Shown here one piece after another: positions 2,373-12,203 of a DNA stretch of 63,833 bases. A model generated the notes under the pieces. That model worked only from the letters and a program-made list of their open reading frames with translations. It was not told the DNA's origin and did not search any database. Origin of the DNA: Halalkalirubrum salinum. Its GTDB lineage: Archaea > Halobacteriota > Halobacteria > Halobacteriales > Haloferacaceae. Position numbers and translations under genes: made by a program. Numbering within the stretch: position 1 is the stretch's first letter; the number at the start of each line of letters is the position of its first letter. The stretch lies in NCBI RefSeq assembly GCF_005543295.1, contig NZ_SRSG01000022.1, positions 1-63,833 of the forward strand, in the 5' to 3' direction.

Positions 2373-3107
2373 TTATTCGTCTTCGCCGTCGTCCTCATCG
2401 CTATCTTCGCCCTCATCCTCATCACTGTCTTCGCCGTCGTCCTCATCGCTGTCTTCGCTATCTTCCTCATCGCTATCTTCGCCATCGTCCTCGTCGCTAT
2501 CTTCGCCATCGTCCTCGTCGCTATCTTCGCCATCGTCCTCGTCGCTATCTTCGCCGTCGTCCTCGTCGCTGTCTTCGCTGTCGTCCTCATCGCTGTCTTC
2601 GCTGTCGTCCTCATCGCTATCTTCGCCGTCAGGATCTTGATCTTCCTCTTCGGAATTTTCTTTGCCGTCTTTTTTGTCCTCGCTTTCTCTGTCTTCCCCG
2701 TCCTCTTCACTCTCATTTCCGTCATCCCCTTCATCATCCTTCTCTTCGCCCTCTAGGCCATCACCATCTTCACTCTCTTCACTCTCTTCATCATCGCCAT
2801 CTTCACTCCCATCTCCGTCCTCTTGGTCACCTTTGTCGCGGTCTTTTTCATCGTCCTTTGTTCTATCTTCGTCATCATCTTCTCCCTCCAGGTCTTTGTC
2901 AGCTTTTTCACTCTCGTTTTGGTTACCCTCTTCGGCGTCTGTTCTTTGATCGGCCTCTTCGGTGGGTTCGAACGAATCGTTTGTCGAGAACTGTATATCA
3001 GTCTGACCGCCATCAGTCAGATACGACACGGTACTGGCACTCCCACCAAACGCAGCGAGAAACAGAATCACCGCTACGGCAATCACACTGATCATCGTGC
3101 GGTTCAT
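2373..3107 (-). CDS. exported acidic Ser/Asp-repeat protein of the SipW-type cluster
   Basis: A 244-residue protein with one N-terminal hydrophobic segment (about residues 3-24) followed by SASTVSYLTDG, which resembles the cleavage region of SipW-dependent proteins. The rest is almost only Asp, Glu and Ser. The last 84 residues contain ten copies of an eight-residue unit EDSDEDD(G/S). No folded domain is visible. Its ATG overlaps the stop of the signal peptidase gene (ATGA), so it is the last gene of a coupled operon. Such a chain would be extended, strongly negative and cation binding, perhaps a matrix or cell-surface filler; that role is inferred. An antisense Arg-rich frame is an artefact of the repeat. 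Confidence 0.8.
   Translation of the reverse strand: MNRTMISVIAVAVILFLAAFGGSASTVSYLTDGGQTDIQFSTNDSFEPTEEADQRTDAEEGNQNESEKADKDLEGEDDDEDRTKDDEKDRDKGDQEDGDGSEDGDDEESEESEDGDGLEGEEKDDEGDDGNESEEDGEDRESEDKKDGKENSEEEDQDPDGEDSDEDDSEDSDEDDSEDSDEDDGEDSDEDDGEDSDEDDGEDSDEDDGEDSDEEDSEDSDEDDGEDSDEDEGEDSDEDDGEDE
2385..2624 (-). repeat. 24-bp in-frame tandem repeat, ten units
   Basis: Ten consecutive 24-bp units encode EDSDEDDG or EDSDEDDS with a few Asp/Glu swaps. The codons vary at third positions, so the repeat is kept at protein level as well as by recent slippage. Copy number is likely to vary between strains. Confidence 0.9.
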
Positions 3108-4216
3108 TTCGGTGCCTCCTCTCTATCCCAGTCCTCTCTCTGTTCGACGACTTCACTGCTCTCCGATTCCTCCTCAGTAGCACCTGCCGTAAAATCGACG
3201 CCTCCATCAGTCGTCTGGGGACTCTGCTCTCCGGCAGCTTGTTCTGCAGGTCTCTGCCGATCGTGGGGCGCCTCAGTAACGTGGTCTAAATCAGACCGAC
3301 TACGTGACTGCATCGCATAGAATATTGACGAAAGACGGACTCCCAACGCGATAAGGAACGTTATCGTATTGCCGACCGCCACACCGATCGTCAGGGCGGT
3401 CGTCACATTGAGCGCGATATACACATTGTATCCGGCGAAGACTCCGAGTATGAGTGTCGAAACCGTGAGATCGGTTGCGGTTATTGTCAGCTCATTAACC
3501 GAGTCGTCGGCCTGGTGTTGGTCTGATTCTACGGGCGTTGGAGCGACCGTCACCTGCTCGGCAGACGGTTCGTACGTGGGTGCGCCGAGGGGTGCCTCGC
3601 CACCTACGTCAGTTGGACTGCCGCCTATCGGAGAATGCGGTGGGTCGACTCCAGCCGGCCGATCGTCATCTGCAGGTGGTACTGATTTGGTGCGCTCGCT
3701 CGATGTGGAATCGCTCGATAAACCTTTGTTTCGCACGATCGACCAAGCCTCAGTGATCAACAAGAGGCCAAACGGCACCACGACGAGAAGCACGAACCCC
3801 AGAGTCGAACTGGCAAACTGAGTCACGTACCCGATGAATGGGATAGTGAGAATTACCGCACCGATGAGCTGTTCAGGTGAAACGGTCCCCGAATCGGGGT
3901 CGTCGTTGGCGTCCCCTTGCGTTTCGAATTCGGGACCGTTGGTGGTTTCCTCAACGTCAATAACGCGGTGGGTTGTGGGTGTGTTCTCATCTCCACGATA
4001 AAACGTAATAACATCACCCTCGGCGATCGTCGCGGGATCCTGTTCAGCAACGATGACGACGTCACCGGGAGAAATCGCTGGCGTCATGCTCGCAGTGAGC
4101 ACGACGTAGCTCGCATCGGCACCGATCACCCACGGAGCCGCGTAAATAACGAACGGAACCACCAGTGCAATCAACAGCAATACTCCAATCGTTTTGGTGA
4201 TCTTCGCGTGATTCAT
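3104..4216 (-). CDS. archaeal signal peptidase I (ER/SipW type) with extended C-terminus
   Basis: Membrane signal peptidase that cuts signal peptides of exported proteins. An N-terminal membrane helix (about 9-27) precedes the catalytic region: Ser43 in LTASMTPAISPGD, His83 in TTHRVIDV and Asp102 in QGDANDDPD. The Ser-His-Asp set, with His in place of the bacterial Lys, is the ER/SipW type. A second helix follows at about 145-165. Then comes an unusual polar linker and two more hydrophobic segments (about 255-305), making the protein 370 residues where plain archaeal enzymes are much shorter. ATGA overlaps link it to the substrate gene upstream and the acidic repeat gene downstream, so it very probably serves this cluster. 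Confidence 0.9.
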   Translation of the reverse strand: MNHAKITKTIGVLLLIALVVPFVIYAAPWVIGADASYVVLTASMTPAISPGDVVIVAEQDPATIAEGDVITFYRGDENTPTTHRVIDVEETTNGPEFETQGDANDDPDSGTVSPEQLIGAVILTIPFIGYVTQFASSTLGFVLLVVVPFGLLLITEAWSIVRNKGLSSDSTSSERTKSVPPADDDRPAGVDPPHSPIGGSPTDVGGEAPLGAPTYEPSAEQVTVAPTPVESDQHQADDSVNELTITATDLTVSTLILGVFAGYNVYIALNVTTALTIGVAVGNTITFLIALGVRLSSIFYAMQSRSRSDLDHVTEAPHDRQRPAEQAAGEQSPQTTDGGVDFTAGATEEESESSEVVEQREDWDREEAPK

Positions 4217-5286
4217 TTCTTTGATCCCCCAGAACAGCTATTTTTCGCCGACGGAGCTACCGAACAGAGCGAATTTCCGTCGGTATCCGCTGCTGAGACG
4301 ACAGTCAGTGTGTAGGTATTCCCATCGTGTTCGCCTGTGATCTGCAGTCCCGGACCGAATGGCGCAGAACAGCTGATATGGAAACAGGCGATCGTCTCTT
4401 GCTCGGCGATGAAATCGATATCTGGGCCATAGTTTGTCTCGCCATGGAAATCAGCAGTAATCGTGTCACCCGACGAAACAGTTTCACTGAGCACCGAATC
4501 TCCTTGACTAGCCCGTTTACCCTTCCCGTTCTTTGAGCCCGTACTCCCTTGGGCTAACTCGACAGTCGTCTCAGGGCCATCGTATTCGAAGGCCGCACGA
4601 GCGATTTTATTCCCGTCACCCTCGCCGCATTCCAGACACGGTTCTTCGCACGAAGACGCGCCGAACGGATTCATCCTCGAGTCGTTGTGCCGACACTGCT
4701 CTGCGCGGAATTCGAACCGTGCACTCGTCTCTGTGCTTTCGAGAGTCGAACGCACCTCGTTGGGAAGGTTGTACTCGATCTGTAGTCCGTACTCGTCGTC
4801 AGCAGTGAGACACTCTTCACCGACGGGGGTAAGCTGGACGCCGTCGGCAAGTTGTTTTTGAACCGTTGATAACGATCCCTCGACATCCTCGCCGTCTGGA
4901 TCTTTGAGGACATGGCCATCGAACAAGAGGCGTATCTCCACATTGTTCGCCAGTCCCGCAGGGTCGGGACAGGCCGTCCGAAGCCACACCCAGCCGTCAT
5001 TGTCTTCGACAGTGATCGTAACGGTCTCGTCTCCCGAATCTCCGGGCGTGAGATCAGAGACACTCAGCACCACCGTCCGCTGATCTATGCCGCAGTTTTC
5101 GCCCTCACAATCGAGTGAGAGCCCAAACGTACCGGTCACGATCGAATTATCGTCAAAACGCTCACGATCGAGAAGGTTCGCACCCGTGGCCGCGCCGGTC
5201 AACGCGCCGGCTGCACTGGCGCTGCCGACAAGCCCGAGAATTTGTCGTCGGCTCAATCCCGATGAATCCGATCCAAGAGGGCTCAT
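4213..5286 (-). CDS. SipW-type exported subunit A (Cys-rich)
   Basis: A 357-residue exported protein of the family served by the neighbouring signal peptidase. The N-terminus has SRRQILGLVGSASAAGAL, a twin-Arg motif plus hydrophobic core, followed by LLDRERFDDNS where paralogs have YFSDEESFEDNS. The shared frame is visible: LTPGDSGDETVTITVEDNDGWVWL, then LQIEYNLPNEV and the motif FRAEQCRHND at about 205. A Cys patch (SSCEEPCLECGEG) separates it from a C-terminal module of about 130 residues with its own Cys and beta-rich pattern (FHISCSAPFGPG). It overlaps both neighbours by ATGA. A role as an extracellular matrix or fibre subunit is inferred from the TasA/CalY-like setting. Confidence 0.82.
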   Translation of the reverse strand: MSPLGSDSSGLSRRQILGLVGSASAAGALTGAATGANLLDRERFDDNSIVTGTFGLSLDCEGENCGIDQRTVVLSVSDLTPGDSGDETVTITVEDNDGWVWLRTACPDPAGLANNVEIRLLFDGHVLKDPDGEDVEGSLSTVQKQLADGVQLTPVGEECLTADDEYGLQIEYNLPNEVRSTLESTETSARFEFRAEQCRHNDSRMNPFGASSCEEPCLECGEGDGNKIARAAFEYDGPETTVELAQGSTGSKNGKGKRASQGDSVLSETVSSGDTITADFHGETNYGPDIDFIAEQETIACFHISCSAPFGPGLQITGEHDGNTYTLTVVSAADTDGNSLCSVAPSAKNSCSGGSKK

Positions 5287-6044
5287 GTGTTGTCTCCGTT
5301 GTTGAAGGGGCTGGTTTGGTCCTCACAGTACGTCAGTCCGAAGTCCAGGGCAAAGTCGACGCCAGTGCCCTGATAGTCGTTCCCAACTGTCTTTGGAAGG
5401 CTCCACGTGAACCCCAGACAGAGCCGCTCGTCCGCCTCAAGACAGGCAAGACGTGCTCCGTTGGACAGGTCGGTAGCGGTAAACACCTCTCGGAGCGTTC
5501 CTGAACTGATCGAATCGTCTCCGATTCCATTCTCGCCGTCACACCCACCAATATCTGCAAAGCCCGTGTCGTACCACAGTTCGACTTTGATGACGTTGGC
5601 AAGTCCACTCACGTCAGTCAACCGAGGACGGAACCACGCGGCGACCTCGTCGGTCTCGTTGGTGTCATCGATCTCAGGAGTGAGGCCGACGTGGAGACTG
5701 CCATTGTCGCCAGGAAGGATGTTCGATTCGTCGATCGCCGGGCCGTTTCGATCGGGTATCTCGATCGGTGATTCAGCCCAGTTGTCGGTCCCGTTGTGTG
5801 CGTCGTCAGGAGTCTCGCTCACAAGCGCGCCGTTGTACTCCTGTCGCCACGCGATCCGCAACGATGGATTACTTCCATCAGAGTCATCCCCGTCAGATTC
5901 CGTTTGGGCGTACGTATAGTGGGTGTGCGTCGGCTTATTCGCAGAGACCTGCGTTAGCAGTGATGTGCCGCCGTACAGGAGTCCACCGGCTGTCGCGGTT
6001 CCCAGCAGTTGGCGGCGAGTGAGTGGCGGTTCCCAGTCAGTCAT
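5283..6044 (-). CDS. SipW-type exported subunit B
   Basis: A 253-residue exported protein, first clear gene of the coupled operon that ends with the acidic repeat protein. The signal has TRRQLLGTATAGGLLYGG and a Ser/Ala-rich end (TQVSANKP). Further on are the divergent shared elements: LPGDNGSLHVGLTP, a WYDTGFAD segment, and FTWSLPKTVGNDYQG near the end, followed by GLTYCEDQTS in place of the paralogs' EQxRHN. The mature N-terminus contains several His and Tyr (THTHYTYAQ). It overlaps the next gene by ATGA. It is the most divergent member of the family, and the assignment rests on position plus these partial motifs. Confidence 0.75.
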   Translation of the reverse strand: MTDWEPPLTRRQLLGTATAGGLLYGGTSLLTQVSANKPTHTHYTYAQTESDGDDSDGSNPSLRIAWRQEYNGALVSETPDDAHNGTDNWAESPIEIPDRNGPAIDESNILPGDNGSLHVGLTPEIDDTNETDEVAAWFRPRLTDVSGLANVIKVELWYDTGFADIGGCDGENGIGDDSISSGTLREVFTATDLSNGARLACLEADERLCLGFTWSLPKTVGNDYQGTGVDFALDFGLTYCEDQTSPFNNGDNT

Positions 6045-6196
6045 CGCTCTCCCTCCGGTTCAACGCAGGTGCCTGCTGACCGACAGTCCGCGATCGCGGT
6101 CTCATTCATTCGTTGAACTGTCTTGATATCGTTTAGGTAACAACTGCCTTCTGGATCTACACCCCGGTTCAGGGCATCATTGTAGCTGTTTAGCAT
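6041..6196 (-). CDS. possible small ORF coupled to the SipW-type operon
   Basis: A 51-residue frame (starts MLNSYNDALNRG, ends EPEGER) whose stop overlaps the next ATG in the same ATGA arrangement as the other genes of the operon. It contains three Cys and no membrane segment. The overlap is the only real support; the sequence matches nothing I know, and the frame could be a leader by chance. It starts directly after a T-rich stretch that may terminate the gene upstream. Confidence 0.3.
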   Translation of the reverse strand: MLNSYNDALNRGVDPEGSCYLNDIKTVQRMNETAIADCRSAGTCVEPEGER

Positions 6197-6200
6197 GTGT

Positions 6201-6218
6201 CTAAAAAGGAAAAAAGAC
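6201..6218 (-). terminator. T-rich terminator candidate
   Basis: The minus strand reads six T, two C and five T (TCTTTTTTCCTTTTTAG) after the 6393-8144 gene. T tracts are typical archaeal terminators; no stable hairpin precedes it. It would separate this gene from the coupled operon at 6044-2373. Confidence 0.35.
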
Positions 6219-6392
6219 GACCGATCAAAGCCGTTCTTGAGGGCATACAGCACTGGTGTGCGATTCATATCGGTTGGGTTGTCTGGATGTGTTCGGTGGA
6301 ATGTCTATTTCCGAGCAGATCCGTTTTATCAGGGTTTGAGTGCAGGTGCTTCGATCCTAGGTGGCGTTGTTCCGGGAATCGGAGTATTGCGG

Positions 6393-8144
6393 TCAGTCAC
6401 TCGACGGTCCACTTGGATCGTCGTTGTGGCGACACTGCTCCGTATAGAATCCGACATCGAAACTCAGCGAGTCTCCCTGAATCTCGTTTTCGACATCTCT
6501 TGGGATCCACCACGCGAAGCCGATATACCGGGTGAACCCGGGTTGGAAGCATTCCTTGATGCCGAGGTCATCAAGCTGAACCCCATCTTCGAGCGCATCA
6601 AGATCGTCTCCAAGCGTTCCTCCATCACCGACTGTGAATTCCTGTTCACAGAGTGCTCCGGTTGTCAGGTCGCCGTAGGTGTGATCGGTGAGATCGCCGT
6701 CAAACTCGTAGCGCTCCTGGACTGTCCCGTCCAGATCGAACTCGATGATTTCAGTATTTTCTGTCACAGATGCGACAAAGTTACCACGCCCTGACTCACT
6801 GATCGCCAGCCCCGTCAGATCTTCGCCGGTTTCGAGTTCGGCGACCTCGATCACATCTCCGGTCAGGAGGTTCACAGTGTAGAGGGCGTTGTCAGCGTTT
6901 GTGTAGAGGTACAGTTGCCCACTGGAGGCGAACACGTTGTCCGCGCCCTCAATATCGATATCCAGGTCAAACTGATCGGTTACCTCGACGGTATCTGCGT
7001 CTGGGTCGGCGATTTCGAACAACGTATCGTCATTATGACTTCCGATCCAGAGCCGTCCGTCGGTATCAACGGCAGCCTGCGTAATCTTGTTAAGCGCCTC
7101 ATCGCTATCGATCGGCACATACTCCAGGTCGCCGTTGTCGGTATCGTATCTCGCCAGCCCCTCACCGGACTCCGCAACCGCGTAGATCGTCGCCCCGTCA
7201 GTCGAAGCCGCAATGTGGGTCTTCGCGAAGTCGAGATCATCCGCATTTTTGTCGTTATCACCAAGATCCACCAGTTTGTCTGTCGTTGCTGTTGCGATCC
7301 CGTTGTCGACGGCGAGTTCCACCTTGTACAGCGTCGAGGGGTCATTCGCGCTGTGATTGGTCATGTAGAGAACGCCCTCGCAGTCCGTGCGGTTGAACAC
7401 GTTGTCGCCGTCGTCGTACCACCAAACGGTCTGAACGTAATCGGCGAGGTTGGCTGTATTATCCGAGTCAACAGCCTCTTCGGGTTCAGTCAGGGTGCCA
7501 CCGTCCTCATCGACGAGTTCGCCGGTGAGCCAGACGTACCCCGGATTGTCACAGATGTGGTAGCTCAGTGTGAGTTCACCGAAGTCACCCGGTTTCACGT
7601 CGTCAAGGTGGACAAGGGGATGGCGCTCTCCGTCGCTGTTTGTATCCGCGTTGTCGGTTCGCCCGATCCCATTGCTGTCCGGTTCGAGATCCTCCGGCAG
7701 GTCTGCGCCGTCTCGGCAGGGATCGAACACGTCGTGCTCGAACGCGTCGCCCACGATCTCCTGTCGCCCGTCGTCGTTCGGGTCCGGGAATGCCTCGATC
7801 GCGGTGTTGGTCATGTAGTCACCAAGATCGTCCTTGTGAATCCACAGCAGCGGATCGGTGGGATTGGGAAGACCGACGTAGTCCTCGTCGTCTCCCGGTT
7901 CCGATCGACGGACGTCGAGCCCCTCTGTCGGATTATCGAAGCCGTACAGCTGTGGGTAGTTGTAGTGTTCTTCCCAGTCGACATTGAGATCGAGCTGGCC
8001 GGCTTCGAGCGAGTTGTCCTCAAAGGACTCCTCGTCGCTGAAGTACGCACTCGTTCCCAATCCGGCGCCCGTCGAAGCGACACCGATCGCTCCGAGGCCG
8101 CCGAGTAATTTCCGTCGTGATAGTCCGTATTTGCCGCTTGTCAT
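6393..8144 (-). CDS. SipW-type exported subunit C with inserted beta-propeller-like repeats
   Basis: A 583-residue exported protein. The signal SRRKLLGGLGAIGVASTGAG ends in TSAYFSDEESFEDNS, the typical SipW-dependent cleavage region. The common frame follows: VKPGDFGELTLSYH, NPGYVWLTGEL and WWYDDGDN. Then about 190 residues are inserted that read like blades of a propeller (YKVELAVDNG, IYAVAESGEGLARYDTDNG, RLWIGSHNDDTLFEIADPD, LYLYTNADNALYTVNLLTG, NFVASVTENTEIIEFDLDG). The frame then resumes with FAWWIPRDVENEIQGDS and FYTEQCRHND. The ATG at 8144 is set by a good Shine-Dalgarno; the open frame extends upstream through a structured leader. Matrix or fibre subunit is inferred. Confidence 0.83.
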   Translation of the reverse strand: MTSGKYGLSRRKLLGGLGAIGVASTGAGLGTSAYFSDEESFEDNSLEAGQLDLNVDWEEHYNYPQLYGFDNPTEGLDVRRSEPGDDEDYVGLPNPTDPLLWIHKDDLGDYMTNTAIEAFPDPNDDGRQEIVGDAFEHDVFDPCRDGADLPEDLEPDSNGIGRTDNADTNSDGERHPLVHLDDVKPGDFGELTLSYHICDNPGYVWLTGELVDEDGGTLTEPEEAVDSDNTANLADYVQTVWWYDDGDNVFNRTDCEGVLYMTNHSANDPSTLYKVELAVDNGIATATTDKLVDLGDNDKNADDLDFAKTHIAASTDGATIYAVAESGEGLARYDTDNGDLEYVPIDSDEALNKITQAAVDTDGRLWIGSHNDDTLFEIADPDADTVEVTDQFDLDIDIEGADNVFASSGQLYLYTNADNALYTVNLLTGDVIEVAELETGEDLTGLAISESGRGNFVASVTENTEIIEFDLDGTVQERYEFDGDLTDHTYGDLTTGALCEQEFTVGDGGTLGDDLDALEDGVQLDDLGIKECFQPGFTRYIGFAWWIPRDVENEIQGDSLSFDVGFYTEQCRHNDDPSGPSSD

Positions 8145-8241
8145 GTGTGTTCCCCTCCTGGGGAAACCCACCGACGGAATCGAACCGCCGAAGCACCAGT
8201 GCTCCACGTTATCCGCGGGGCCGGTACGCACCAGCGTGGGT
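8145..8241 (-). promoter_or_regulatory. structured 5' leader, tRNA T-arm-like, with buried ribosome binding site
   Basis: Read on the minus strand, an outer stem ACCCAC (8241-8236) with GTGGGT (8171-8166) encloses a hairpin CGGCGG-TTCGATT-CCGTCG (8190-8172), whose 7-nt loop matches a tRNA T-loop. Next comes TCCCC-AGGA-GGGGA (8164-8151), a 5-bp stem that contains the AGGAGG Shine-Dalgarno of the gene starting at 8144. The element is repeated before the gene at 9901. The span from outer stem to outer stem is 76 nt. It could be a cis-acting switch or a tRNA-derived leader; no function can be proven from one genome. Confidence 0.6.
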
Positions 8242-8275
8242 GGAAGTGATCGGAAGGCCGTGTGAGCGTGTCAAA

Positions 8276-9901
8276 CTAGTTATCCGCCTCCATATCCCGG
8301 GGATCCGGATTGTCGTTGTGGCGGCACTGCTCGGTGTAGAACGATAAGTCAAACATGACCGAGTCGGTCTGGATCTCGTTGCCGACGTCAGTCGGGACCC
8401 ACCACTCGAAGCCAATGTAGGCGGTTGTTGAGTTCAGGAAGCAGCGATCGCCGTTCTCAACGGGTGGAATCTCGCCGTTGTCACCGTTATCGCCGTTATC
8501 TCCGTTTTCACCGTCTCCGACCGGACAACAGACATCGATGTTGCTGATCTCTTGACCGGTCGGCGTCGAAAACGTCACCGTGTCGAGGATCACAGGCTCG
8601 TCGAAGAGATACACGTTTTCGCCCTTATTGCCGCCCTTTACGCTAACGACGCGAACCGGGCCGGCCGTGGAGAGCGTAATTTCGCCGTTTTCTTGATTGA
8701 AATCAGTAACGGTGAAATTTGTACAACCGCTGTAGGTCGTCTCACTTTCGAGATTCCCCGCTTCGACGGCGGATCCGACGAGATCGATGCCGAAAATCGA
8801 CTCGTAGTGTCCGCAGTCGTAGTTTCGTGGACCGCCTGCACCGGAGATATCCGAATCGGTAAACTCCTCGTCGTCTGTTGTCACATAAAGTGTGTAGTTG
8901 TCCCCGTCGAGGCTTTCAACGACGTTTGTATCGCCGTTGTCTTCGACGCCCTCGTCGGCTTCTTGAATTTTTGACGCTGACATCGGCTCGGGGTCGAGCA
9001 TTAACATTTCGTTTTCGAGAACCGAGAGAACGCTACGCAGGGACCCACTCGCCAGGACGAATTCACCCGCCCCGAGGACGTTATCGCCTTCGCCGGAGTC
9101 CTTGTCATCCGGATCGGCTCCGTAAGCGCCGTCTGCTCCCGTGTCGTACCAGACGGCGGCGTGGATTTCATCGAGCAATTCGACGACATCCTCTTGTTCG
9201 TTCTCACTTTCGCCCTCGGGTTCGGTCACGCCGTTCTCACTGGCGTCCTCGAGTGCACCGGTCAGCCAGACGTAGCCGGGGTTTCCACACAGGTGAAAAC
9301 TAAGAGTGGCCTCGCCGAAGTCGCCGGGCTTCACGTCGCTGATGTTGATCAGCGGATCGCCGGCCACGGTGGTTTGGGGATTCGGGCCGTCGCCGAGGGT
9401 GACCCCGCCGTCGACTCCTGCACCGGTGCGATACGGATGACTCAGAGCATCGTCGAGATCGGCCGGTAACTCACAGATGGAGTCGTCGAGGAAGACCTGT
9501 TGGCCGTCGTAGTCGTCGGCTTCGATCTCCTCTGGGGCTTCCTCCGGGTCGAATTCCGGAAACGCCTCGATCGCTGTGTTGGCCATGAACTGAGCCGAAT
9601 CGTCGACGTATATCGTCTTCTCTTCGTCCGATGCCGCCGACGGAAACCCGATATATCCGGAGTCCGGGTCCGTACTGATATCGACGCCATCCGTTTCGTC
9701 ATCGGACCCGTCGTAGTAGTGCTCTGTCCAGTCGACCTTGAGATCTAGCTCTCCAGCGGTCAGGGTGTTGTTCTCGAATGACTCCTCGTCGCTGAAGTAG
9801 GCACTCGTGCCGAGCCCTGCACCCGCTGAAGCGACGCCGATCGCTCCGAGGCCGCCGAGTAGTTTTCGCCGAGACAGACCGAATGTATTGCCGTTCGTCA
9901 T
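8276..9901 (-). CDS. SipW-type exported subunit D with a different inserted domain
   Basis: A 541-residue paralog of the gene downstream. The signal SRRKLLGGLGAIGVASAGAG and TSAYFSDEESFENNT are nearly identical to those of the 6393-8144 protein. The common frame is VKPGDFGEATLSFH, NPGYVWLTGAL, VWYDTGADG, then near the end FEWWVPTDVGNEIQTDS and FYTEQCRHND. Between these lies a different insert with VRVVSVKGGNKGENVYLF and a Cys pair (DVCCPVG), followed by a short GDNGDNGDNG linker. The inserted module is thus at the same point as the propeller in the paralog. ATG at 9901 follows a GAGGGG Shine-Dalgarno by a few nucleotides. Confidence 0.83.
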   Translation of the reverse strand: MTNGNTFGLSRRKLLGGLGAIGVASAGAGLGTSAYFSDEESFENNTLTAGELDLKVDWTEHYYDGSDDETDGVDISTDPDSGYIGFPSAASDEEKTIYVDDSAQFMANTAIEAFPEFDPEEAPEEIEADDYDGQQVFLDDSICELPADLDDALSHPYRTGAGVDGGVTLGDGPNPQTTVAGDPLINISDVKPGDFGEATLSFHLCGNPGYVWLTGALEDASENGVTEPEGESENEQEDVVELLDEIHAAVWYDTGADGAYGADPDDKDSGEGDNVLGAGEFVLASGSLRSVLSVLENEMLMLDPEPMSASKIQEADEGVEDNGDTNVVESLDGDNYTLYVTTDDEEFTDSDISGAGGPRNYDCGHYESIFGIDLVGSAVEAGNLESETTYSGCTNFTVTDFNQENGEITLSTAGPVRVVSVKGGNKGENVYLFDEPVILDTVTFSTPTGQEISNIDVCCPVGDGENGDNGDNGDNGEIPPVENGDRCFLNSTTAYIGFEWWVPTDVGNEIQTDSVMFDLSFYTEQCRHNDNPDPRDMEADN

Positions 9902-9964
9902 TCATGATCCCCTCTAAGGGAAACCCACCGGCGGAGTCGAACCGCCGAAGTTCCGGTGTGGGTT
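9902..9964 (-). promoter_or_regulatory. second copy of the T-arm-like leader
   Basis: The minus strand has the outer stem AACCCAC (9964-9958) with GTGGGTT (9928-9922), the hairpin CGGCGG-TTCGACT-CCGCCG (9947-9929), and a weaker stem TCCC-TTAGAG-GGGA (9921-9908) that includes the Shine-Dalgarno. Compared with 8145-8241, the hairpin differs by two bases: one loop base and one stem base that turns a G-U pair into G-C, which keeps the stem. The spacer between outer stem and hairpin is shorter. The coding regions downstream have diverged much more than this leader. Confidence 0.6.
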
Positions 9965-9990
9965 AGTAATTGGTCAGGAACCGATTCCAA

Positions 9991-11289
9991 TCAGACGTCG
10001 ACGCGGAACCCGAGTTCCTCACGCGAGGGCTCGTCGTCCCATTCGAACGTCACGTCGCCGGAGATGACGTCACCTTCCTGCAAGGTCGCACCTTCGAGGA
10101 TGATGTGGTTCGTCTCCTCTTCGGCGCTGACGCTCGTCGCCCCTGACGGGGTGCTCCCGTTGACCATGATATTCTCAACAGTCACGATCGCGTCTTCCTT
10201 GGACGATTTAGCCGTCACACCGACGCCATCTGCCATCGGGATCGGGGCATCCTCGACTGTGACCTCGTTACCGTCGACGCTCCAGATCGCGTCGCCGTTT
10301 TCGATCGTCAGCTCGAACGGTACATCTTGGCTGTTGGGCCACGCAAAGTTCTCGTTGCCAGAGTGGACTGGCGTGTCGTCAGGCAGCCGGATATCGAGCT
10401 CCCGGTTCGCCGCACCGCCTCCGTCGCCGTAGATCCCACGCGCGTGCCAGCTGGCGTCCTCAAGCTCGTCTTCAAGCTTGGCGAAGTCTTCACCTTCGCG
10501 GCCAGTAACGCAGGGATTGTTCGTTCCGTCGTTGTGCCGCGACTGCTCAGCGTAGAACGACAGATCGAAGCCAACCGAATCCGTCTGGATCTCGTTCCCA
10601 ACTTCTTCGGGGTCGATTTCCCAGTCGAGTAGAACACAGATATCGTTCTGTTCTCCGTCGGAATCGTTGCCCTCGAACGGGTTGCGATCATCGACCGGAT
10701 TCTCGGCACCCTCGCCGTCGAGTGGAACACCATTGCGGAGTGCAAGCAGTGCCCCCCGGAGCGTCCCGTCGAAGATTTCACTCTCTTCGGAGTCACCATC
10801 CTGGTCATAATAGTACAGCGTCGCTTCGATCGAGTCGGCGAGTTCGCCTCTGCCTTCGCCGGGGTCACCGCCTGTGTCGTCGACCTCCGCTTCCGGCTCA
10901 GTTCTGCCGTTCTCGTTGTTCTCCGTCAGCTCACCGCACATCCACATGTACGCGTCGTTATCGACGATCGAGAAGGAGAACTCGAGCTCACCGGAATCGC
11001 CCGGTTTGACGTCCTCCAATCCGTAGCTGACAGACGCTCCGTCGGACTCATCGCCTTGGACCGTTCCTGAATCAGTGTATTCACCGAGTTTCTCGCCCTG
11101 GTCTGCATAAAAGTCGTAGTGGACGTACAGGTCCAACTCCCCGGCCTCTAAGCTATTGTCCTCGAAGCTCTCCTCGTCGCTGAAGAACGCCGTGGTGCCC
11201 ATCCCCGCTCCCGCAGAGGCAAGGCCAATGATTCCGATTCCACCCAGTGCTTTGCGCCGTGATAGCCCATATCTGTTGTCGTCGTTCAT
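9991..11289 (-). CDS. SipW-type exported subunit E
   Basis: A 432-residue exported paralog. The signal SRRKALGGIGIIGLASAGAG leads into TTAFFSDEESFEDNS. Common frame: LEDVKPGDSGELEFSFS, NDAYMWMCGEL, LYYYDQDGD, then LDWEIDPEEVGNEIQTDS and FYAEQSRHND, where Ser replaces the Cys seen in the other three. Here the extra domain is C-terminal rather than inserted: about 150 residues with beta-strand character (FELTIENGDAIWSVDGNEV, VTVENIMVNG). Start is the ATG at 11289, not the open frame to 11367, because the signal begins there. It has its own promoter and heads the cluster. Confidence 0.83.
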   Translation of the reverse strand: MNDDNRYGLSRRKALGGIGIIGLASAGAGMGTTAFFSDEESFEDNSLEAGELDLYVHYDFYADQGEKLGEYTDSGTVQGDESDGASVSYGLEDVKPGDSGELEFSFSIVDNDAYMWMCGELTENNENGRTEPEAEVDDTGGDPGEGRGELADSIEATLYYYDQDGDSEESEIFDGTLRGALLALRNGVPLDGEGAENPVDDRNPFEGNDSDGEQNDICVLLDWEIDPEEVGNEIQTDSVGFDLSFYAEQSRHNDGTNNPCVTGREGEDFAKLEDELEDASWHARGIYGDGGGAANRELDIRLPDDTPVHSGNENFAWPNSQDVPFELTIENGDAIWSVDGNEVTVEDAPIPMADGVGVTAKSSKEDAIVTVENIMVNGSTPSGATSVSAEEETNHIILEGATLQEGDVISGDVTFEWDDEPSREELGFRVDV

Positions 11290-11386: not shown

Positions 11387-11660
11387 CTGAAATGTTACTG
11401 TTGAGTACACAGTCGATCGTAACGTGATATCAGCCGATCAGCGGGCAGTCTGAGCGGATCTTCGTGGAAAATAACGACATCTCAGCGGTATTTTTCGGGT
11501 TTCAGGCTTACCCTGTAGACGTCGATCCGCCGGTAGCCAGATGTTTCCAGTATCTTGACTGTCTATAAGACTAACCTATAGCTTCAAGAGAAAATTCAGC
11601 AAATACATAACTAACGGTCCTTGACTAGTACGGTCGTTCGTGATCAAGGGTGTACCAGAC
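11387..11660. other. divergent intergenic region
   Basis: No gene is seen between the promoter of the SipW-type cluster and the divergent regulator. The right half is AT-rich (around 11560-11625) and probably holds the regulator's promoter. Operators for a winged-helix protein would be expected here, but I see no clear inverted repeat. Confidence 0.4.
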
Positions 11661-12203
11661 ATGGGGCTCAAGACAGTAGAGACGATCAGTCTTCCACAGT
11701 TCAAGGTGTATGAAATCCTGGGAAACCGACGGCGGTTCGAGACGGTCCGCGTCCTCGAGGACGCTGGCGGGAGCGTGTCGGTCGCCGAACTCAGCGAGGC
11801 GATCGCCGAGGCTGAAGCCGACGGCGAACCGCCATCGAAGTCCGCCCGCGACAGCGTCTACTCTTCGCTTCACCAGACGCACCTTCCAAAACTCCATGAA
11901 CTCGGTATTATCCATTACAACCGCGACGCACGAACCGTCAAACCGCTTGATCGCGCGCGCGATCTCAGCCGATACATGGAGGTTGTCACCTACTTTGGGC
12001 TAACGTGGGGAGAGTATTACCGGGCTGTTGGTGTCCTCGGACTGTTGACTGTGCTCGCTTCGCTTCTCGAAGTTCCAATTTTTGTACTCATCGACCCGAT
12101 TTTGCTCTGCAGCATCGTCTTGGGGATCTACGCGATCTCCAGTGCGCACCAGCTGTGGAGCCACCCGATGGAATTCCGTGTGCGTGATCTCTGGAGACGC
12201 TGA
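11661..12203 (+). CDS. DUF7344-like winged-helix membrane regulator
   Basis: A 180-residue protein with an N-terminal winged helix (about 8-100: VYEILGNRRRFETVRVLEDAG, VSVAELSEAIAEAE, and the LHQTHLPKLHELGIIHYN recognition region) and two C-terminal membrane helices (about 128-170). This layout matches a large haloarchaeal regulator family. The ATG at 11661 (MGLKTVE) suits the family better than the ATG at 11640. It diverges from the SipW-type cluster, which makes it the likely regulator, possibly sensing something at the membrane; that link is inference from position. Confidence 0.8.
   Translation: MGLKTVETISLPQFKVYEILGNRRRFETVRVLEDAGGSVSVAELSEAIAEAEADGEPPSKSARDSVYSSLHQTHLPKLHELGIIHYNRDARTVKPLDRARDLSRYMEVVTYFGLTWGEYYRAVGVLGLLTVLASLLEVPIFVLIDPILLCSIVLGIYAISSAHQLWSHPMEFRVRDLWRR

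Follow-up and report, generated by a model that had tools for sequence, protein, structure and literature searches.

Introduction

In the tapA-sipW-tasA locus of Bacillus subtilis and the sipW-tasA-calY locus of Bacillus cereus, an S26B SipW-type signal peptidase is linked to proteins of the camelysin/TasA fold that begin with A-(Y/F)-x-D. In TasA, residues 28 to 38, starting with AFNDI, are donated to the next subunit, where they occupy the groove and displace a self-complementing strand (PMC9674648), and residues 44 to 57 of TapA suffice, when secreted, to support biofilm (PMC10151520). More than one camelysin is found per locus in B. cereus, and TapA acts via a short N-terminal peptide (PMC9674648, PMC10151520, PMC4292775). 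The archaeal bundling pili, AbpA of Pyrobaculum and ABPx of Pyrodictium, are cited as TasA-related donor-strand fibres in PMC9674648 and PMC11952670. Both multi-camelysin operons and archaeal relatives of TasA are already known.

Here we describe a related locus of the haloarchaeon Halalkalirubrum salinum, lying in a stretch of 63,833 nucleotides (positions 1 to 63,833 of contig NZ_SRSG01000022.1, the whole of which is called the window). The Bacillus loci and the bundling pili are its nearest known counterparts. It comprises five exported proteins (A to E), a SipW-like S26B signal peptidase, an acidic protein (F) and a divergent regulator with a DUF7344 domain. The box of the A-type subunits, TSA/YFSDEESFENNTLTAGELDL, has the same layout as the AFNDI start of TasA, and the linkage to an S26B peptidase is likewise shared with Bacillus. 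Unlike the Bacillus systems, the haloarchaeal set has twin-arginine instead of Sec signals on A to E, up to 7 modular A-type subunits, an extra frame protein without the box (D), a frame-less protein (F) and the DUF7344 regulator, while no TapA homologue was seen in it. Bundling pili consist of small pilins without inserted modules, whereas this set is modular, and a modular multi-subunit operon with twin-arginine signals is not described for them in the literature covered. We consider it fairly probable that the locus is a haloarchaeal adaptation of the SipW/TasA-type extracellular fibre system, its product being a heteropolymeric donor-strand fibre; the gene set, widespread and without a name, probably builds a surface fibre like that which holds Bacillus biofilms, with swappable modules of a binding type on its subunits. 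If so, TasA-type fibres would be extended from uniform scaffolds to modular displays, and one would have to ask how subunits that exchange strands can cross the membrane in the folded state.

A common frame in the exported proteins

The initial annotation, made by a reader of the sequence alone, had recognized a group of related exported proteins with shared motifs, and both the relationship and the motifs were confirmed. Pairwise phmmer searches linked A with B (6e-38), A with C (5e-36), B with C (9e-74), E with A, B and C (5e-9 to 4e-17) and D with E (3e-6), and profile-profile comparison (hhalign) over the frame gave 1e-37 for A-D, 7e-38 for A-E and 7e-26 for D-E. By these comparisons A to E (window 4213-11289) are homologous and built on one common frame, with a relatedness far beyond chance. 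The SipW box reads TTAFFSDEES in A and TSAYFSDEES in B and C, is degenerate in E (TGANLLDRER) and is missing from D; PGDxG occurs in all five proteins, W..P..VxNEIQxDS in A to C with an altered version in D and E, and EQ(C/S)RHND in A, B, C and E, not in D. The TIGR04088 model (cut-off 19) matched A, B and C (27.7, 31.8 and 25.0 bits) and neither D nor E, NF041928 matched A (64.6 bits), and the sole direct match to Pfam PF12389, on B (23.8 bits), covers residues 23 to 58, i.e., the signal region only. The further claim that the frame is kept while the modules differ held among relatives, as 277 of 284 A proteins have the three frame blocks (signal/box, PGDxG strand block and NEIQxDS strand block) in order.

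Within loci, the signal/box block is the most conserved (median identity 0.73). Subunits of different types resemble each other more within one locus than between loci in the signal block (medians 0.79 versus 0.69, p 2e-20) and in the donor block (0.61 versus 0.54, p 7e-18), and show no within-locus excess of likeness in the M block (p 0.23); the pairs compared are not independent. The pattern would agree with subunits that are processed and assembled together. Identical codons are used only slightly more often within loci (N block, 0.61 versus 0.55), which speaks against gene conversion of the frame at large and would fit selection or mild conversion.

Predicted fold and ancestry of the frame

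The AlphaFold2 model of A, built with 91 sequences (pLDDT 83.7, pTM 0.81), has a beta-sandwich with another beta domain after it, and residues 34 to 52 are mostly coil and unpaired in this monomer, which is consistent with a donor strand. In a Foldseek search of the PDB, the best E values at probability 1.00 belonged to TasA, both in the fibre (8aur_A, 2e-4) and as a monomer (5of2, 2e-3). Several results speak against too close an identification: legume lectins come close behind TasA in the list for A, the TM-scores on the target are low (0.46 to 0.50, with the second domain included in the model), the direct sequence search of A against TasA was weak (5of1, E 0.17, with none below E 0.1), and the model of D matched several donor-strand pilins weakly and did not match TasA. 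Structure prediction, named in the initial annotation as a check on the supposed frame, nevertheless returned one fold, the model of A being TasA-like and the profiles of D and E homologous to that of A. As modelled, the frame is TasA-like.

In other orders of the same phylum, minimal relatives of 200 to 250 residues lie beside S26B peptidases. Their signals are plain and hydrophobic, without twin arginine, and they match PF12389, some over the full length (3e-15). A profile of these proteins (A10) found TasA (5of1, 6.4e-9; 8aur, 8.2e-9) and AbpX (5e-4), which A itself does not match directly, and was in turn matched by the A profile (A2) at 2e-26. The simplest reading of these profile matches is that the haloarchaeal system descends from a TasA-like protein exported via Sec, with twin-arginine signals and modules acquired in haloarchaea.

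Conservation and distribution of the gene set

Loci were retrieved solely by similarity to the A frame, giving 73 from haloarchaea (Halorubrum, Halobellus, Natronomonas, Halorientalis, Haloarchaeobius, Halosimplex, Natronococcus, Halobacterium and other genera) and 20 from further relatives and the organism's own genome, and profiles for A, D, E, peptidase and regulator served to annotate the neighbouring genes. The A loci are the best 80 matches, a choice that may favour canonical clusters. The order regulator (divergent), one or more A genes, D, E and peptidase recurs almost everywhere, across many genera. Among 88 non-redundant loci, the peptidase is present in 78, D in 64, E in 70 and a divergent DUF7344 gene directly beside A in 82; in 74 of them the peptidase lies downstream of A on the same strand. 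Conserved linkage with the peptidase, the other check named at the outset, is in this way borne out, with the genes arranged alike. Most often, a locus has three A genes. This genome of 3.4 Mb has six S26-type matches, only two of which exceed the TIGR02228 cut-off, both within its two clusters, so that chance is a poor account of the linkage; DUF7344 genes number 20. The second cluster (contig C35, L022:7544-16979) is also complete, with a von Willebrand factor A (vWA) subunit, D, E, peptidase and F. In Natronocalculus amylovorans, a single locus (L040/L044) contains two adjacent clusters that face opposite ways. A search of viral contigs for relatives found none.

Of the 243 haloarchaeal genomes sampled, 107 have members of the D profile, as do 51 of the 73 genera, and the system may therefore provide one of the main adhesive or matrix fibres of archaea in salt lakes. 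In the public annotation of a Halorubrum ezzemoulense copy, the products appear as 'SipW-dependent-type signal peptide-containing protein', 'vWA domain-containing protein', 'hypothetical protein' (D and E) and 'signal peptidase I', i.e., the parts are labelled and the system has no name. The first of these labels, that of NCBIfam TIGR04088, is the current public one for A-type proteins and names the signal only. Literature searches combining SipW or TasA with haloarchaea, Haloferax or Halobacteria returned no description, although the coverage was mostly open-access, which makes this absence weak.

Inserted and C-terminal modules

The gap between frame blocks 2 and 3 is either short (80 to 150 residues) or insert-bearing (at least 200), with no value from 150 to 200. 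Of 150 inserts, 113 lie between two frame helices and 28 after the second helix. Clustering of the insert cores at 40% coverage, after the shared frame segments had been trimmed away, gave nine groups, in which vWA accounts for 116 of 150; at least one vWA subunit is present in 75 of 88 loci. The initial annotation's view of unrelated modules therefore stands as regards the differing inserts and tails and overstates the breadth of variety, one family making up most of the cores. The window is unusual in having no vWA, its modules being an anchor-W tail, a KGG insert and a propeller insert. The tails of A proteins form about 15 groups, among them anchor-W, beta-helix, vWA and one Laminin_B-like case. 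Subunit C, which carries the propeller-like insert, matched DUF6923 (9.8e-6) and SGL (5.4e-5), both slightly under the curated cut-offs. The propeller of C recurs in a TasA-like protein (L123:6357-7763) of a different order in the phylum, where it forms the C-terminus and does not interrupt the frame (E 1e-20, a single comparison).

Direct support for interchangeable subunits, as initially proposed, came from a genome of the same genus, SHRA6, in which A and C are orthologous to those of the window (N block, 100% and 98%) and slot 2, the place of B, is occupied by a vWA subunit with an insert unrelated to that of B and an M block of 44% identity. Whole subunits are thus exchanged at this slot. 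A swap of the module alone was ruled out, since the difference between the two genes in slot 2 extends to ins1, M and mid segments alike.

Twin-arginine signals and candidate end pieces

A twin-arginine signal, which the initial annotation had passed over, is present in 413 of 418 A-E-type proteins. By family, the RR pair occurs in 275/277 A, 66/68 D and 72/73 E proteins, in place of the Sec-type signal of Bacillus; judged by these motifs, A to E appear to be exported by the twin-arginine translocation (Tat) route. Proteins of the F type are generally without it (RR in 10 of 73 candidates).

The significance of the missing SipW box in D had likewise been overlooked. The [YF]F[ST]D-type box occurs in 0 of 68 D proteins and TIGR04088 matches in 0 of 50, and in the AlphaFold2 model of D (pLDDT 74.9) the conserved YTYAQ motif forms a strand, possibly a self-complementing one. 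The acidic repeat protein of the initial annotation is indeed acidic and repetitive, but what had escaped notice is that it belongs to a conserved family with a SipW-box-like N-terminus, the sixth member of the set. The F family directly follows the peptidase in 70 loci and has a Sec-type signal, a TVALLSDEETVSGTF-like start and a low-complexity tail (median 92% DENTSGPQKA) that is often acidic and bears N-glycosylation sequons; no frame motifs were found in it. The box motif is present in 29 of 70 F proteins against 26 of 535 controls (p 8e-16, odds ratio 14), TIGR04088 is the most frequent family match (17 of 64 members), and the F N-terminus aligned with the A N-block in hhalign (probability 84%, E 7e-6). 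TapA has a folded Ig-like domain and F a low-complexity tail instead, which makes F a TapA analogue at most. In the window, a tandem repeat with a unit of 24 bp (10.5 copies, 91% matches) encodes the acidic tail (2380-2630), the length of which may therefore vary between strains.

Proposed mechanism and alternative explanations

The observations can be combined in the following scheme: (i) A, B, C (and E) would leave the cell folded, via Tat; (ii) the cognate peptidase would cut the signal ahead of the A(Y/F)FSDEES box, releasing an N-terminal strand; (iii) the freed strand would complete the open beta-sandwich of the next subunit, as residues 28 to 38 of TasA do; (iv) the resulting mixed fibre would display the module of each subunit (anchor-W, KGG or propeller here, mostly vWA elsewhere), and different subunits could join one fibre because the A-type subunits have the same box and frame; (v) D, having the frame without the box, could accept a strand and not donate one, and F, having a box-like N-terminus without the frame, could donate, like the TapA N-terminal peptide, and not accept, so that both may set the fibre ends; and (vi) the DUF7344 protein would regulate expression of the cluster. 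Assigning D and F as acceptor-only and donor-only end pieces is the proposal that makes best use of the distribution of box and frame, and it makes fibre initiation and termination directly testable. The complete scheme, a Tat-exported heteropolymeric donor-strand fibre with both end pieces encoded in the same operon, interchangeable displayed modules and subunits swapped between related species, is offered tentatively, at somewhat less than even confidence.

Polymerization is predicted here from sequences and models, and the degenerate box of E tells against such a fibre. The frame could instead be a shared secretion or surface-display domain of separate adhesins, sensors or enzymes that do not polymerize; the large modules (vWA, propeller, beta-helix, Laminin_B-like) that form much of these proteins, and might hinder a regular fibre, would agree with this, as would the lack of a direct A-TasA match at significant E. 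We regard it as unlikely, since conservation of the signal/box block extends beyond the needs of cleavage alone, A has the TasA fold in its model, and without strand exchange it is difficult to account for the conserved occurrence of D, lacking the box, alongside F, lacking the frame. That pairing might itself be coincidental within a fibre system, in which case F would be one of many acidic proteins secreted by the cell, D would have an accessory role at the surface, and neither would set an end. The F of the window is awkward for a donor, with a degenerate box (TVSYLTDGG) and no TIGR04088 match of its own; acidic secreted proteins are common in haloarchaea, and D could be held by an uncleaved signal. 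Yet the constant slot of F, the enrichment of its box, its leading family match and the frame homology of D to A make coincidence rather doubtful.

A mating or kin-recognition aggregation factor, in which swappable modules on fibres or surface proteins decide which cells adhere, would suit the subunit swap between sister species, the several clusters per genome and the conserved slots with variable modules; an association with genes for DNA transfer or fusion was neither sought nor seen. We think this improbable as an account of its own, and it is compatible with the donor-strand fibre, not separate from it.

Other features of the locus

The initial positions of the genes proved correct, A to E, the peptidase and F lying on the minus strand and the regulator being divergent (Table 1). 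Four-base overlaps join D to E (5283-5286), E to the peptidase (4213-4216) and the peptidase to F (3104-3107), because of which D, E, peptidase and F look co-translated. A search for inverted repeats between A and the regulator found nothing beyond short chance-like arms.

Table 1. Genes and predicted segments of the cluster (positions in the window)
Feature	Position	Strand	Description and basis
Regulator R	11640..12203	+	DUF7344 (winged-helix-like), two C-terminal transmembrane segments; PF24035 3e-24
Subunit A	9991..11289	-	Twin-arginine signal, SipW box, TasA-like frame, C-terminal choice-of-anchor-W domain; TIGR04088, NF041928, AlphaFold2/Foldseek
A, predicted mature N-terminus and putative donor strand TAFFSDEESFEDNSLEAGELDL	11128..11193	-	Aligns with TasA AFNDIKSKDATFASGTLDL
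A, choice-of-anchor-W domain (residues 268-430, C-terminal)	10000..10488	-	NF041928 8.8e-18
Subunit B	8276..9901	-	Frame, insert after helix H2; TIGR04088; PF12389 in signal region only
B, 'KGG' insert domain	8420..9010	-	No named library family; 18 members in 17 loci (40% coverage)
B, putative donor segment SAYFSDEESFENNTLTAGELDL	9740..9805	-	
Subunit C	6393..8144	-	Frame with beta-propeller-like insert between H1 and H2; TIGR04088 25.0 bits
C, propeller-like insert	6624..7373	-	Insert-core analysis; sub-cut-off DUF6923 and SGL matches in C
C, putative donor segment SAYFSDEESFEDNSLEAGQLDL	7986..8051	-	
Subunit D	5283..6044	-	Twin-arginine signal and frame, no SipW box; candidate acceptor-only end subunit
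D, conserved HYTYAQ motif	5904..5921	-	Beta strand in D model
Subunit E	4213..5286	-	Frame, degenerate SipW box, AEQCRHND, Cys-rich C-terminal domain; hhalign A-E 7e-38
SipW-like S26B signal peptidase	3104..4216	-	Ser43-His83 motif, two C-terminal transmembrane segments; TIGR02228
F (acidic protein)	2373..3107	-	Sec-type signal, SipW-like N-terminus, acidic low-complexity tail; candidate donor-only initiator
F, putative donor-like segment TVSYLTDGGQTDIQFSTNDSF	2970..3032	-	Aligned to F-family consensus TVALLSDEETVSGTF

The peptidase matched TIGR02228 (99.1 bits, cut-off 51.85) and, under the curated cut-off of 190, NF046067 (95.8 bits, E 2.3e-27), and its profile matched human SEC11C (2.7e-19). 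Its conserved C-terminal extension, with the two transmembrane segments and an invariant Tyr263, is not present in some minimal archaeal S26B peptidases (about 165 residues). From the transmembrane segments read in its sequence, the DUF7344 protein is probably membrane-bound, and it likely controls expression of the cluster.

The DUF1102 pilin (PDB 9p0a), a haloarchaeal type, has an RR-type signal as A does; the two are similar in the signal region alone (E 0.005) and have no common frame by sequence. A DUF1102 homologue of 9p0a (E 2.5e-9) is encoded on another contig of the same genome (C12, L115:7919-11046), next to an S26 peptidase and a divergent DUF7344 gene. This group appears to be a further haloarchaeal pilin system, distinct from the present one and using a regulator and a peptidase of the same types.

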